Origin: Candidatus Staskawiczbacteria bacterium RIFOXYD1_FULL_32_13
GTDB taxonomy: Bacteria; Patescibacteriota; Minisyncoccia; Minisyncoccales; Staskawiczbacteraceae
Reading direction: 5' to 3'
DNA length: 38,732 nt
Assembly: GCA_001820485.1 (NCBI GenBank)
Contig: MHPU01000020.1
Location: forward strand, 11,589-50,320
Part shown: in pieces, positions 9,207-12,178 of the stretch
Layout of the letters: each line of letters starts with the position of its first letter
Numbering within the stretch: the stretch's first letter is position 1
Position numbers and translations under genes: made by a program
The notes under the pieces: model-generated
What the model was told of the DNA's origin: nothing
Database searches by the model: none
Seen by the model: only the letters and a program-made list of their open reading frames with translations

Positions 9207-10475
9207 TTATTTTGCTTCTTCCGGCTCTTCGCCCTTCTTCTTTTTGGATTTTTTAACTTTTTTTTCTTTTACTGGCTTATCTTCTTTTACTTCTTCTATT
9301 TTTTCCTCATTTTCTTCCTCTTTTAGAGCAGGTTTAATATCTATTTTCCAACCTGTTAAATTAGCAGCTAATCTTACGTTTCTACCATCTTTACCAATTG
9401 CTAAAGATAATTGATCTTCTGGCACAAAAACTGTAGCTGTATTTTTGTCTTCCACTTTTACACTACTAACTTTAGCTGGGCTTAGGGAATTAGCAATAAA
9501 TTTTTCTGGTTTTTCAGTCCATTCTACTACATCAATTTTTTCTCCTCCTAATTCATTTATCACAGCAATAATTCTTGTTCCACGCTGACCAACACAACTT
9601 CCTATTGGATCAATACCATCTTCTGTGGAAGCTACTGCCATTTTTGTTCTAAAACCCGGTTCTCTGGCAATTGCTTTAATAACTACTGTGCCTGCTGTAA
9701 TTTCTGGAACTTCTAATTCAAAAAGCCTTGAAACCAATTTTGGATAAACACGAGAAAGTAACACAATAGAACCCTTTGAAGTATCTTCAACTTTTAAAAT
9801 ATAACATTTTACTCTTTGTCCTGGTTTGTAATATTCTCCAGGAATTTGCTCTTCTCTGTTTAAAAGACCTAAAGTTTTACCAATATCAACATAAATAGTA
9901 GAGCCTTCAATCCTTTGAACTAGTCCAGATACAATTTCCCCTTCTTTAGATTTAAATTCATTTGCAATAGTTTCTTTTTCTGCTTCTCTAATTTTCTGCA
10001 AAATAACTTGTTTTGCAGTTTGAGCTGCAATTCTACCATAATCCTCTTGAGGCTTTAAAGGAATTTCAATTTCTTCTCCAGCCTTTATACTAGGATAATC
10101 TTTTTTAGCATCTTCAATCATTATGTGTTTTTCTGGATTAAAAATAACTTTTTTTGGTTCTTCTAATGCGCCATCTTCTGTGGTTTTTTGAATTCTATCA
10201 AAATCTTCGTGAGGAATAATCTTTTTTTCTTTTAATTCTTCAATTTCTTCTTCTGTATAAAGCATTGAATCATCTACTACAAGCTTTATTTGCCAAAATT
10301 TTGAATCACCTGAGACTGGGTCGAATTTTGTTTTAATTTTTTGTCCTTTTTCTCCATAATCTTTTTTATAAGCAGTTGCCAAAGCAGCTTCTATTGTTTC
10401 AATAATTTTTTCTGGTGTAATTCCTCTTGCTTCTGCAATTTGAGCTAATGCTCTATGAAATGATTTTATATCCAC
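9207..10475 (-). CDS. nusA: Transcription termination/antitermination factor NusA
   Basis: NusA N-terminal, S1 and KH regions (GIDPIGSCVGQRGTRI; LAIGKDGRNVRLAANLTGWKIDI). Listed ORF starts at 10505, but its first residues MLFGIWNFST lie in repeat sequence; GTG at 10475 (VDIKSFHRALAQIAEARG) is the likelier start. Confidence 0.93.
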   Translation of the reverse strand: MDIKSFHRALAQIAEARGITPEKIIETIEAALATAYKKDYGEKGQKIKTKFDPVSGDSKFWQIKLVVDDSMLYTEEEIEELKEKKIIPHEDFDRIQKTTEDGALEEPKKVIFNPEKHIMIEDAKKDYPSIKAGEEIEIPLKPQEDYGRIAAQTAKQVILQKIREAEKETIANEFKSKEGEIVSGLVQRIEGSTIYVDIGKTLGLLNREEQIPGEYYKPGQRVKCYILKVEDTSKGSIVLLSRVYPKLVSRLFELEVPEITAGTVVIKAIAREPGFRTKMAVASTEDGIDPIGSCVGQRGTRIIAVINELGGEKIDVVEWTEKPEKFIANSLSPAKVSSVKVEDKNTATVFVPEDQLSLAIGKDGRNVRLAANLTGWKIDIKPALKEEENEEKIEEVKEDKPVKEKKVKKSKKKKGEEPEEAK

Positions 10476-10481
10476 TGTACT

Positions 10482-10555
10482 AAAATTCCAAATTCCAAAT
10501 AACAAATTCCAAACTATTCGTTTGTGATTTGGTGCTTGTGATTTGTGATTTATTT
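10482..10555. repeat. Short inverted repeat (CAAATTACAAGCACC family), gene-less copy B
   Basis: Left arm AAATTCCAAATTCCAAATAACAAATTCCAAAC; reverse complement of right arm AAATCACAAATCACAAGCACCAAATCACAAAC. Same family as 8302 and 27301. Confidence 0.85.
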
Positions 10556-10681
10556 AAAATAAAAGTCCGTGGTCAAACGGACAAACTTTCTTATCTTCTA
10601 TATATAATGCTATCAGAAGTGGGTTTTAATGTCAATATCTATTGAAAATCTGTCAAATTTATGTTTAAATTAAAAAAATAA

Positions 10682-10765
10682 GCCACGGTGATGAAATTGG
10701 CAAACATTCGGCACTCAAAATGCCGCGAGCGCAAGCTCTTGTGGGTTCAAGTCCCACCCGTGGCA
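10682..10765 (+). tRNA. tRNA-Leu (anticodon CAA)
   Basis: Acceptor GCCACGG/CCGTGGC, anticodon arm CGGCA-CTCAAAA-TGCCG, long variable arm CGAGC-GCAA-GCTC, T arm GTGGG-TTCAAGT-CCCAC; CCA not encoded. Confidence 0.95.
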
Positions 10766-10766
10766 C

Positions 10767-11387
10767 ATGAGAGGGTATTTTCGTAAAACAATTCTTAATA
10801 AAGACAAGGGATTACAAGCTTATGTTATTGGTCTCGCACTCGGCGATGGTAATTTATCTAATCCAAACGGCAAAGCTACAAGATTAAGAATAACCTGCGA
10901 CAAAAAATATCCTTTTTTGATTACAAAAATTTGTAAAGCATTAGAAAAACTGTTTCCAGAAAATAAAGTTTCTATCGTAGACAGAGATAAAGGGTGTGTT
11001 GATATAAGTATTTATTCAAATCATTTTGAAAAATTGCTAGGATGGAAAGCAAAAAACGGTTCAAAATTTGTCCAAAAAGTTAACGTACCAAATTGGATTA
11101 AAGAAAATAATAACTATAAAATAAATTGTTTACGAGGACTCATAGAAACTGATGGTTCAATTTATAACGATAGAGGCTATACAATGATGATTTTTACTTC
11201 AGTAATACCCGCGCTTGCAAAAGATTTTTATGATATGATTTTATCTCTTGAATTTAATCCTCATCTGTATTTAATAAAAAGAGGTAAAACTGCGGAATAT
11301 AAATATAGCCAGCAAGATGTTTATCATATTCGGCTTTCAAAAAATGTTTCTAAATTTTTAGAACTAGTAAAACCAGAAAAAATATAA
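10767..11387 (+). CDS. LAGLIDADG-family homing endonuclease-like protein
   Basis: Two LAGLIDADG-type motifs: YVIGLALGDGNL and LRGLIETDGSI. ATG lies 2 nt after the tRNA-Leu discriminator base. Confidence 0.85.
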   Translation: MRGYFRKTILNKDKGLQAYVIGLALGDGNLSNPNGKATRLRITCDKKYPFLITKICKALEKLFPENKVSIVDRDKGCVDISIYSNHFEKLLGWKAKNGSKFVQKVNVPNWIKENNNYKINCLRGLIETDGSIYNDRGYTMMIFTSVIPALAKDFYDMILSLEFNPHLYLIKRGKTAEYKYSQQDVYHIRLSKNVSKFLELVKPEKI

Positions 11388-11391
11388 AATA

Positions 11392-11425
11392 AAAACGGCT
11401 TTGAGAAATTCAAGGCCGTTTTGTT
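11392..11425. terminator. Terminator between the LAGLIDADG ORF and the MBL-fold gene
   Basis: AAAACGGCTTTGAGAAATTCAAGGCCGTTTTGTTTT. Confidence 0.8.
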
Positions 11426-11431
11426 TTATAT

Positions 11432-12178
11432 TTATAAAATATATTCTTCTAGAGGCTCTGGCAAAATTATTTTTAAACCTGTGTCGGGTATTGCTTCTTT
11501 AACTTTAGCCCTAGTTTCATTATTAAATTTTCTTTTAAAGTGAGCTAACGCCAAACATTTTACATTTTGTCTTTTTGCCATTTCAAAAATATCAACTGCT
11601 GCAACATGTCCTTTTATTCTTTCGTCAAACATATAACATTCGTGCATTAAAATATCTGCATCTTTATATAATTTTTCTGGATTTTCATCAAAAGGTCCAT
11701 CCCCACTATAACAAACAATATTTCTACCATTATCAATTCTTATAGCTAAATTATAGGCAGTATGCAAGGTTTTTGCAAAACTTAATTTTAATTCATTAAA
11801 CTGAACACTTTCCCCATCTTTTGCAATCACAAAATTAACTTTGAATCCATAACTATCTATTCCAAAATATGAATGCTGACATAATCTTTCAATATCTACT
11901 TTAAGTTGCTCTGAGCAAATTATAGTTAATTCTTTTTTTCTATCTTCTTCCAACATTCTACCTAAAAGATTTGGCACTCCAAATAAATGATCTGAATGCC
12001 TATGAGTTATATACAAAACATCAATTAAAGAATGGTCTTTGGTATATTTCCATAACTGTCTTACGGCCGAATCTCCACAATCAAGCATTATGGCGGTTTT
12101 TTCTGACAAAACTAAATGCGAATGATTGGGGTATCTTTCGTCAAACGCTTCGCCTACTCCCAAAAATATTATTTTCAT
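11432..12178 (-). CDS. MBL-fold hydrolase, RNase Z-like
   Basis: MKIIFLGVGEAFDERYPNHSHLVL, ITHRHSDHLFGVPNLLGRM, YSGDG, HECYM. Confidence 0.82.
   Translation of the reverse strand: MKIIFLGVGEAFDERYPNHSHLVLSEKTAIMLDCGDSAVRQLWKYTKDHSLIDVLYITHRHSDHLFGVPNLLGRMLEEDRKKELTIICSEQLKVDIERLCQHSYFGIDSYGFKVNFVIAKDGESVQFNELKLSFAKTLHTAYNLAIRIDNGRNIVCYSGDGPFDENPEKLYKDADILMHECYMFDERIKGHVAAVDIFEMAKRQNVKCLALAHFKRKFNNETRAKVKEAIPDTGLKIILPEPLEEYIL

Follow-up and report, generated by a model that had tools for sequence, protein, structure and literature searches.

A free-standing LAGLIDADG endonuclease gene tethered to tRNA-Leu(CAA) in Patescibacteria and its probable expression through tRNA maturation

How does a gene for a LAGLIDADG endonuclease come to start immediately behind an uninterrupted tRNA gene, and how is it expressed there? 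We examined such a locus in a window of 38,732 nucleotides (the whole stretch of DNA that was analysed) from a patescibacterial genome of 1.03 Mb and 93% completeness, close relatives of which are named Staskawicz- and Nealsonbacteria. The features of the locus, in window coordinates, are as follows.

9207–10505, minus strand: nusA (TIGR01953, E 2.6e-114), divergent flank, outside the element
10642–10671, plus strand: promoter-like -35/-10 pair, TTGAAA-18-TAAATT, about 10 nt 5' of tRNA-Leu(CAA), from a consensus scan
10682–10765, plus strand: tRNA-Leu(CAA), uninterrupted, discriminator A10765, CCA not encoded, from ARAGORN and Rfam
10766, plus strand: single base C between the discriminator and the ATG, read from the sequence
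10767–11387, plus strand: free-standing LAGLIDADG endonuclease gene, ATG start, 206 aa
10824–10850, plus strand: first LAGLIDADG motif (..IGLALGDG) with catalytic D27, kept in 58 of 59 relatives
11130–11156, plus strand: second LAGLIDADG motif (LRGLIETDG) with catalytic D129, kept in 59 of 59 relatives
11392–11422, plus strand: strong intrinsic terminator closing the tRNA-ORF unit, 14-pair stem and T-tract
11432–12178, minus strand: RNase Z-like metallo-beta-lactamase gene from profile matches, convergent flank, outside the element

ARAGORN placed the tRNA at 10682–10766 and the Rfam tRNA model at 10682–10765 (52.9 bits). The first-pass annotation had described an intact tRNA-Leu(CAA) that ends at discriminator A10765 without an encoded CCA, and this was borne out by the Rfam model and the sequence; the ATG of the ORF indeed lies at 10767, two nucleotides after the tRNA, with C10766 as the one intervening base. 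C74 was encoded in 178 of 182 tRNA-Leu(CAA) genes, with or without an adjoining endonuclease ORF. In the source genome, the endonuclease ORF is single copy and the tRNA at 10682–10765 is the sole match to the tRNA-Leu(CAA) pattern. The same annotation saw no promoter between the tRNA and the ORF and a terminator behind the ORF, which agrees with our scan: the only plus-strand promoter-like pair near the unit was that at 10642–10671, upstream of the tRNA, in a consensus scan whose set of pairs did not rise above shuffled sequences, and the terminator at 11392–11422 follows the ORF. The -10 region and the A/T-rich stretch upstream of the tRNA are kept in the congeneric genomes G021 and G022, and both have nusA in the equivalent place. 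The terminator holds the same position 3' of the ORF in G021 and stands directly behind the tRNA in G022, in which the site is empty. The RNase Z-like gene also adjoins tRNA-Leu(CAA) in relatives that have no endonuclease ORF. An intron- or intein-encoded endonuclease was rejected, as the tRNA is uninterrupted, no intron model matched and the ORF has no splicing domains.

The 206-aa product matched Pfam LAGLIDADG_3 (PF14528) at 1.8e-9, above the cut-off. The best Foldseek matches of its AlphaFold model (pLDDT 94, pTM 0.90) were PI-SceI and I-DmoI, with E about 2e-9, probability 1.00 and TM-score 0.6–0.7 for I-DmoI and related single-chain enzymes, and the protein is a predicted single-chain LAGLIDADG nuclease with the alpha-beta-beta-alpha-beta-beta-alpha fold of I-DmoI. 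Both catalytic aspartates were retained together in 58 of 59 relatives, and selection on the endonuclease was purifying, with dN/dS of about 0.06–0.33. These values do not fit vertical conservation of a degraded nuclease, which the first-pass annotation had named as one of two cases against its reading. No helix-turn-helix (HTH) or other added regulatory domain was found in the tRNA-Leu(CAA) endonuclease clade.

Relatives were collected by a contig search. With a single protein as the query, no match was obtained; with an alignment of four close relatives, the search yielded 60 loci in named genomes, nearly all of them Patescibacteria. A tRNA-Leu(CAA) gene adjoined 57 of these 60 loci (58 of 61 when the window's own copy is counted), and none of the 61 copies was adjacent to any other leucine tRNA. 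The ORF lay downstream on the same strand in 55 of the 58 adjoining copies; two (L082 and L097) lay directly upstream and ended 1–2 nt before the tRNA, and one (L068) was convergent and faced it. No tRNA was in view at L055, at L085, which lies close to the edge of its contig, or at L101, which is disrupted as well. Of the 55 same-strand downstream copies, 53 had their first in-frame start codon 1–23 nt behind the discriminator. The two exceptions were L054, where we read an in-frame ATT two bases behind the tRNA, and L089 (2668–3477), a degenerate and truncated copy with the substitution D27N, 250 nt from an intact tRNA-Leu(CAA), with its own TATAAT and a second, partial copy of the tRNA 3' end in front. 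As a control, an ORF was equally close in 2 of 22 tRNA-Leu(CAA) loci that lack this ORF and have long flanks, and one of these two belonged to a different LAGLIDADG clade. Since the layout recurs in 53 of 55 copies, the start codon directly behind tRNA-Leu(CAA) in the window is not due to chance.

Other LAGLIDADG clades are also placed on tRNA genes. More distant relatives, of 340 aa, were found at the 5' side of tRNA-Ser (GCT, GGA, CGA, TGA) or tRNA-Gln(CTG), always co-oriented with the tRNA (L005–L012 and L028–L045). The stop codon of 26 of these 27 genes falls in the interval from 24 nt inside the tRNA to 35 nt ahead of its 5' end. When the stop codon is inside the tRNA, it would be removed by RNase P maturation, and consequently one transcript could not yield both products. 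We read an HTH-like stretch at the N terminus of the 340-aa proteins from their sequence, with no Pfam HTH match. The same bacterial family has further clades: some have their end inside tRNA-Cys(GCA), others are located between tRNA-Cys and tRNA-Leu(UAA), and others adjoin tRNA-Leu(UAG) and tRNA-Leu(CAG) (the loci of these tRNA-Cys(GCA), -Leu(UAA), -Leu(UAG) and -Leu(CAG) clades are L329, L343, L344, L334, L348, L335 and L336). Of the stand-alone LAGLIDADG loci in the family, 25 were examined and 19 of them lie directly against a tRNA, whereas chance alone would by a rough estimate place fewer than 1% there. In this group, a stand-alone LAGLIDADG gene is as a rule tethered to a tRNA gene. Two members of different clades were located 3' of tRNA-Leu(CAA) itself, one 5 nt (L139, genome G013) and the other about 40 nt (L233, genome G177) behind it, which indicates that this flank was colonised more than once. 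The best reading of these sequence comparisons is a guild of free-standing homing endonucleases that would be specialised on tRNA loci.

None of the 53 copies with a start 1–23 nt behind the tRNA had a Shine-Dalgarno motif in the gap between tRNA and start codon, as against two of the six copies not behind a tRNA (L068 and L101). Shine-Dalgarno-like motifs were found in only 6 of the 37 ORFs of the window, where about 10% would be expected by chance. Since these motifs are near background, a leaderless message suits this genome, as the first-pass annotation had assumed. The tRNA-coupled architecture that it had put forward also stood up: promoter, tRNA, ORF and terminator follow one another with no Shine-Dalgarno motif and no room for a promoter, and the arrangement is deeply conserved. 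Probably, the ORF is co-transcribed from the tRNA promoter and freed as a leaderless or near-leaderless mRNA by tRNA 3' processing. If RNase Z cuts after the discriminator, C10766 is the expected 5' end of the mRNA. In the 93%-complete source genome, just one RNase Z-like protein was found, the product of the gene at 11432–12178, which scored 101 bits against an RNase Z cut-off of 293 and left profile positions 149–201 unmatched. To judge by its sequence, this protein is atypical, which counts against the explanation that we prefer. An encoded CCA usually blocks RNase Z, and CCA was encoded in 13 of 58 endonuclease-linked tRNAs. In a genome without the endonuclease (G006), an ordinary ORF of 154 aa begins 1 nt behind tRNA-Leu(CAA) (L134). 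Because of this ORF, tRNA-led leaderless expression may not be limited to the endonuclease elements.

An empty site was available within the genus. In G022, nusA, tRNA-Leu(CAA) and the RNase Z-like gene are in the same order with nothing inserted, whereas G000 and G021 are occupied, and the comparison of the occupied and empty sites revealed an insertion of ORF size only, between the tRNA 3' end and the terminator. The survey of loci with and without the ORF that the first-pass annotation had suggested thus yielded both a congeneric empty site and the tethering of 58 of 61 copies to tRNA-Leu(CAA). The ORF is present in 4 of 36 genomes of the family and about 12 of 383 genomes of the class (about 3%), with presence and absence mixed inside four genera. 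Remnants were searched for behind tRNA-Leu(CAA) with the tRNA sequence removed, and two were found, one with stop codons and truncation (G275) and the other a C-terminal fragment (G096). The endonucleases of G000 and G021 were rejected as sisters (AU p 0.0009) while the NusA proteins are 94% identical, and the G021 endonuclease groups with the copy of another genus. A ParB neighbour is common to 43 of 59 loci, indicating that the tRNA locus itself is partly syntenic. For the 43 loci with this neighbour, the endonuclease tree recovered 7 of 17 well-supported ParB clades, and one was rejected (p 0.046). Since the endonuclease tree is mostly without conflict with the ParB tree, much of the history of the endonuclease may have been vertical with losses. 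Across the class, tRNA-Leu(CAA) is often syntenic with parA/parB and miaA, as seen in the flanks of many of the loci L052–L104; MiaA modifies A37 of UNN-reading tRNAs. The random, unrelated neighbourhoods that had been expected are contradicted by this ParB/MiaA synteny, which lowers the case for free movement. Searches of phage, plasmid and viral-contig sequences found no close relative of the clade and only three phage matches at about 25% identity, and an origin in such sequences was rejected. We read these data as a spread that would have occurred mainly among close relatives, with frequent loss.

Taken together, the gene is likely a parasite of the patescibacterial tRNA-Leu(CAA) locus, namely a free-standing LAGLIDADG homing endonuclease gene with its catalytic residues intact that is expressed through the tRNA and homes into empty alleles. 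The promoter of the tRNA would drive a cotranscript of tRNA and ORF, and maturation of the tRNA 3' end, by an RNase Z or equivalent cut, would free a leaderless or near-leaderless endonuclease mRNA. The endonuclease would then cut a tRNA-Leu(CAA) allele without the gene, and in repair from the occupied copy the gene would be installed, probably along with a portion of the tRNA beside it. For the gene, the tRNA would be a safe, conserved and essential docking site and a ready-made promoter, and distant relatives would exploit other tRNA genes likewise, mostly from the 5' side. The first-pass annotation had placed the likely target at the tRNA 3' end. The locus is clearly tRNA-Leu(CAA), but the flanks beyond C74 are not conserved and the anticodon arm is what distinguishes CAA from other leucine tRNAs. 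Since CAA is defined by this arm whereas acceptor stems and downstream flanks vary, we consider it more probable that the target extends into the tRNA than that it is restricted to the 3' end.

If the target is inside the tRNA, the occupied allele must differ from it. This leads to a further explanation, in which the enzyme cuts inside the resident tRNA-Leu(CAA) and the diverged, resistant tRNA-Leu(CAA) of the occupied allele replaces it, that is, intronless homing with an essential tRNA as cargo. The CAA specificity suits it, as this points to the anticodon arm and not to the variable acceptor stem. Endonuclease-linked tRNA-Leu(CAA) genes had fewer close relatives than unlinked ones (median best identity 0.845 versus 0.905, p 4e-4), and the D-stem pair 10-25 was not G-C in 36 of 58 linked versus 16 of 124 unlinked tRNAs. 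The differences seen at positions 52 and 62 were not counted, since both positions are fixed by the search pattern. In addition, tRNA-Leu(CAA) is the most variable of the four leucine isoacceptors in the family, and no second tRNA-Leu(CAA) matching the pattern was found in the linked genomes. However, the tRNA-Leu(UAG) control was as variable between congeners as tRNA-Leu(CAA), the matched test was not significant (p 0.08), the anticodon loop was unchanged in the linked tRNAs, and the samples are not phylogenetically independent. Because the tRNA-Leu(UAG) control and the matched test both weaken it, a resistant rescue tRNA was not adopted as the verdict; it is retained as a lead that we consider possible but on the unlikely side. 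As a separate observation on leucine tRNAs, the tRNA-Leu for CUN codons has the anticodon AAG and not GAG in G000, G022, G024, G025 and G035 (fragments TAAGG).

Alternatively, the protein could have been domesticated and serve the host as a regulator or a factor in tRNA processing. It might, for instance, bind the tRNA-Leu(CAA) gene or its transcript, much as WhiA retains the fold as a DNA-binding regulator, and be encoded beside its target for autoregulation. The tight tethering to one isoacceptor, the purifying selection and the partial congruence with ParB would be expected of such a factor, and the 206-aa protein had a weak, sub-threshold match to PF14527 (LAGLIDADG_WhiA). WhiA is likewise a bacterial protein of the LAGLIDADG fold. 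It is a regulator with an HTH domain that is conserved across its lineage and not patchy, and WhiA-type regulators have lost the catalytic aspartates. The present clade, unlike WhiA, retains the catalytic acids, has no added regulatory domain, is confined to about 3% of the class genomes with mixed presence within genera, and leaves pseudogene remnants. A host-serving role is thus improbable.

An old, vertically inherited gene could also sit behind this tRNA by happenstance and be held there by the compactness of the genomes. The ParB/MiaA neighbourhoods common to many loci and the shallow congruence with ParB are compatible with such passive linkage, but we regard it as very unlikely in view of the empty sites and mixed presence within genera, the AU rejection in the window's own genus, the presence of at least three neighbourhoods, the independent LAGLIDADG clades on the same and other tRNAs, and the use of both sides of the tRNA. 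Cargo of an integrase-type island is scarcely credible and is refuted at this locus: although tRNA 3' ends are classic integration sites and the L089 copy is preceded by a partial duplicate of one, the window contains no integrase and only a single copy of the tRNA 3' end, the insertion is of ORF size only, and the clade has no phage, plasmid or viral-contig relatives.

The favoured reading, a homing endonuclease parasitising the tRNA-Leu(CAA) locus, can be compared with known systems. I-DmoI is encoded in an archaeal rRNA intron. The present endonuclease resembles I-DmoI and other single-chain LAGLIDADG homing endonucleases in its size, two motifs and predicted fold, but its ORF lies in neither an intron nor an intein. 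Free-standing endonucleases of phage T4, namely SegB and the other Seg and Mob enzymes, are engaged in intronless homing and lie beside the genes they convert, and SegB, located among the tRNA genes of the phage, cuts both inside these genes and in their surroundings (PMC2988022, PMC13096335). The gene studied here is similarly free-standing beside the conserved gene region of its presumed spread, with no intron or intein. SegB is a GIY-YIG phage enzyme with its own late promoter and control by an RNA hairpin, whereas the present endonucleases have the LAGLIDADG fold, reside on bacterial chromosomes with one tRNA species per clade, and are apparently expressed from the tRNA. Patescibacteria carry LAGLIDADG genes in rRNA introns (PMC7143001), which share with the present ORFs the phylum, the nuclease superfamily and RNA genes as targets; those genes lie inside introns, whereas the ORFs described here adjoin tRNA genes that are uninterrupted. 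Group I introns of bacterial tRNA-Leu(UAA) and tRNA-fMet have anticodon-specific endonucleases (reviewed in PMC3984707). They are also mobile elements directed at one particular tRNA gene, and their target specificity lies at the anticodon, but they interrupt the anticodon loop and are spliced, and nothing is spliced here. We found no description of an association of LAGLIDADG or other homing endonucleases with tRNA genes in Patescibacteria, CPR or Parcubacteria in the literature within the search, which covered few subscription journals. The family is LAGLIDADG by fold and resembles intronless homing endonucleases by behaviour; what is new is the host, the strict tethering to tRNA and the apparent tRNA-driven expression. 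To our knowledge, no bacterial chromosomal homing endonuclease family specialised on intact tRNA genes is known from earlier work.

It would thus be the first such family, and it occurs in a phylum whose genomes are reduced and in which few mobile elements are known. The protein gene would be a clean example of expression by way of tRNA maturation, and the family is a supply of new compact nucleases, each with neighbouring genes that point to its likely target. More speculatively, the guild may consist of natural cleave-and-rescue drives with one tRNA species per clade, which would cut the essential tRNA gene of a rival allele, supply a resistant copy together with themselves, and be switched on by tRNA maturation. 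If this tentative proposal is true, the elements would be the counterpart in nature of rescue-type gene drives, with a tRNA as the essential cargo, and they would cause the leucine and serine tRNA genes of these reduced genomes to turn over unusually fast, giving a concrete and testable reason for fast tRNA gene turnover in Patescibacteria.
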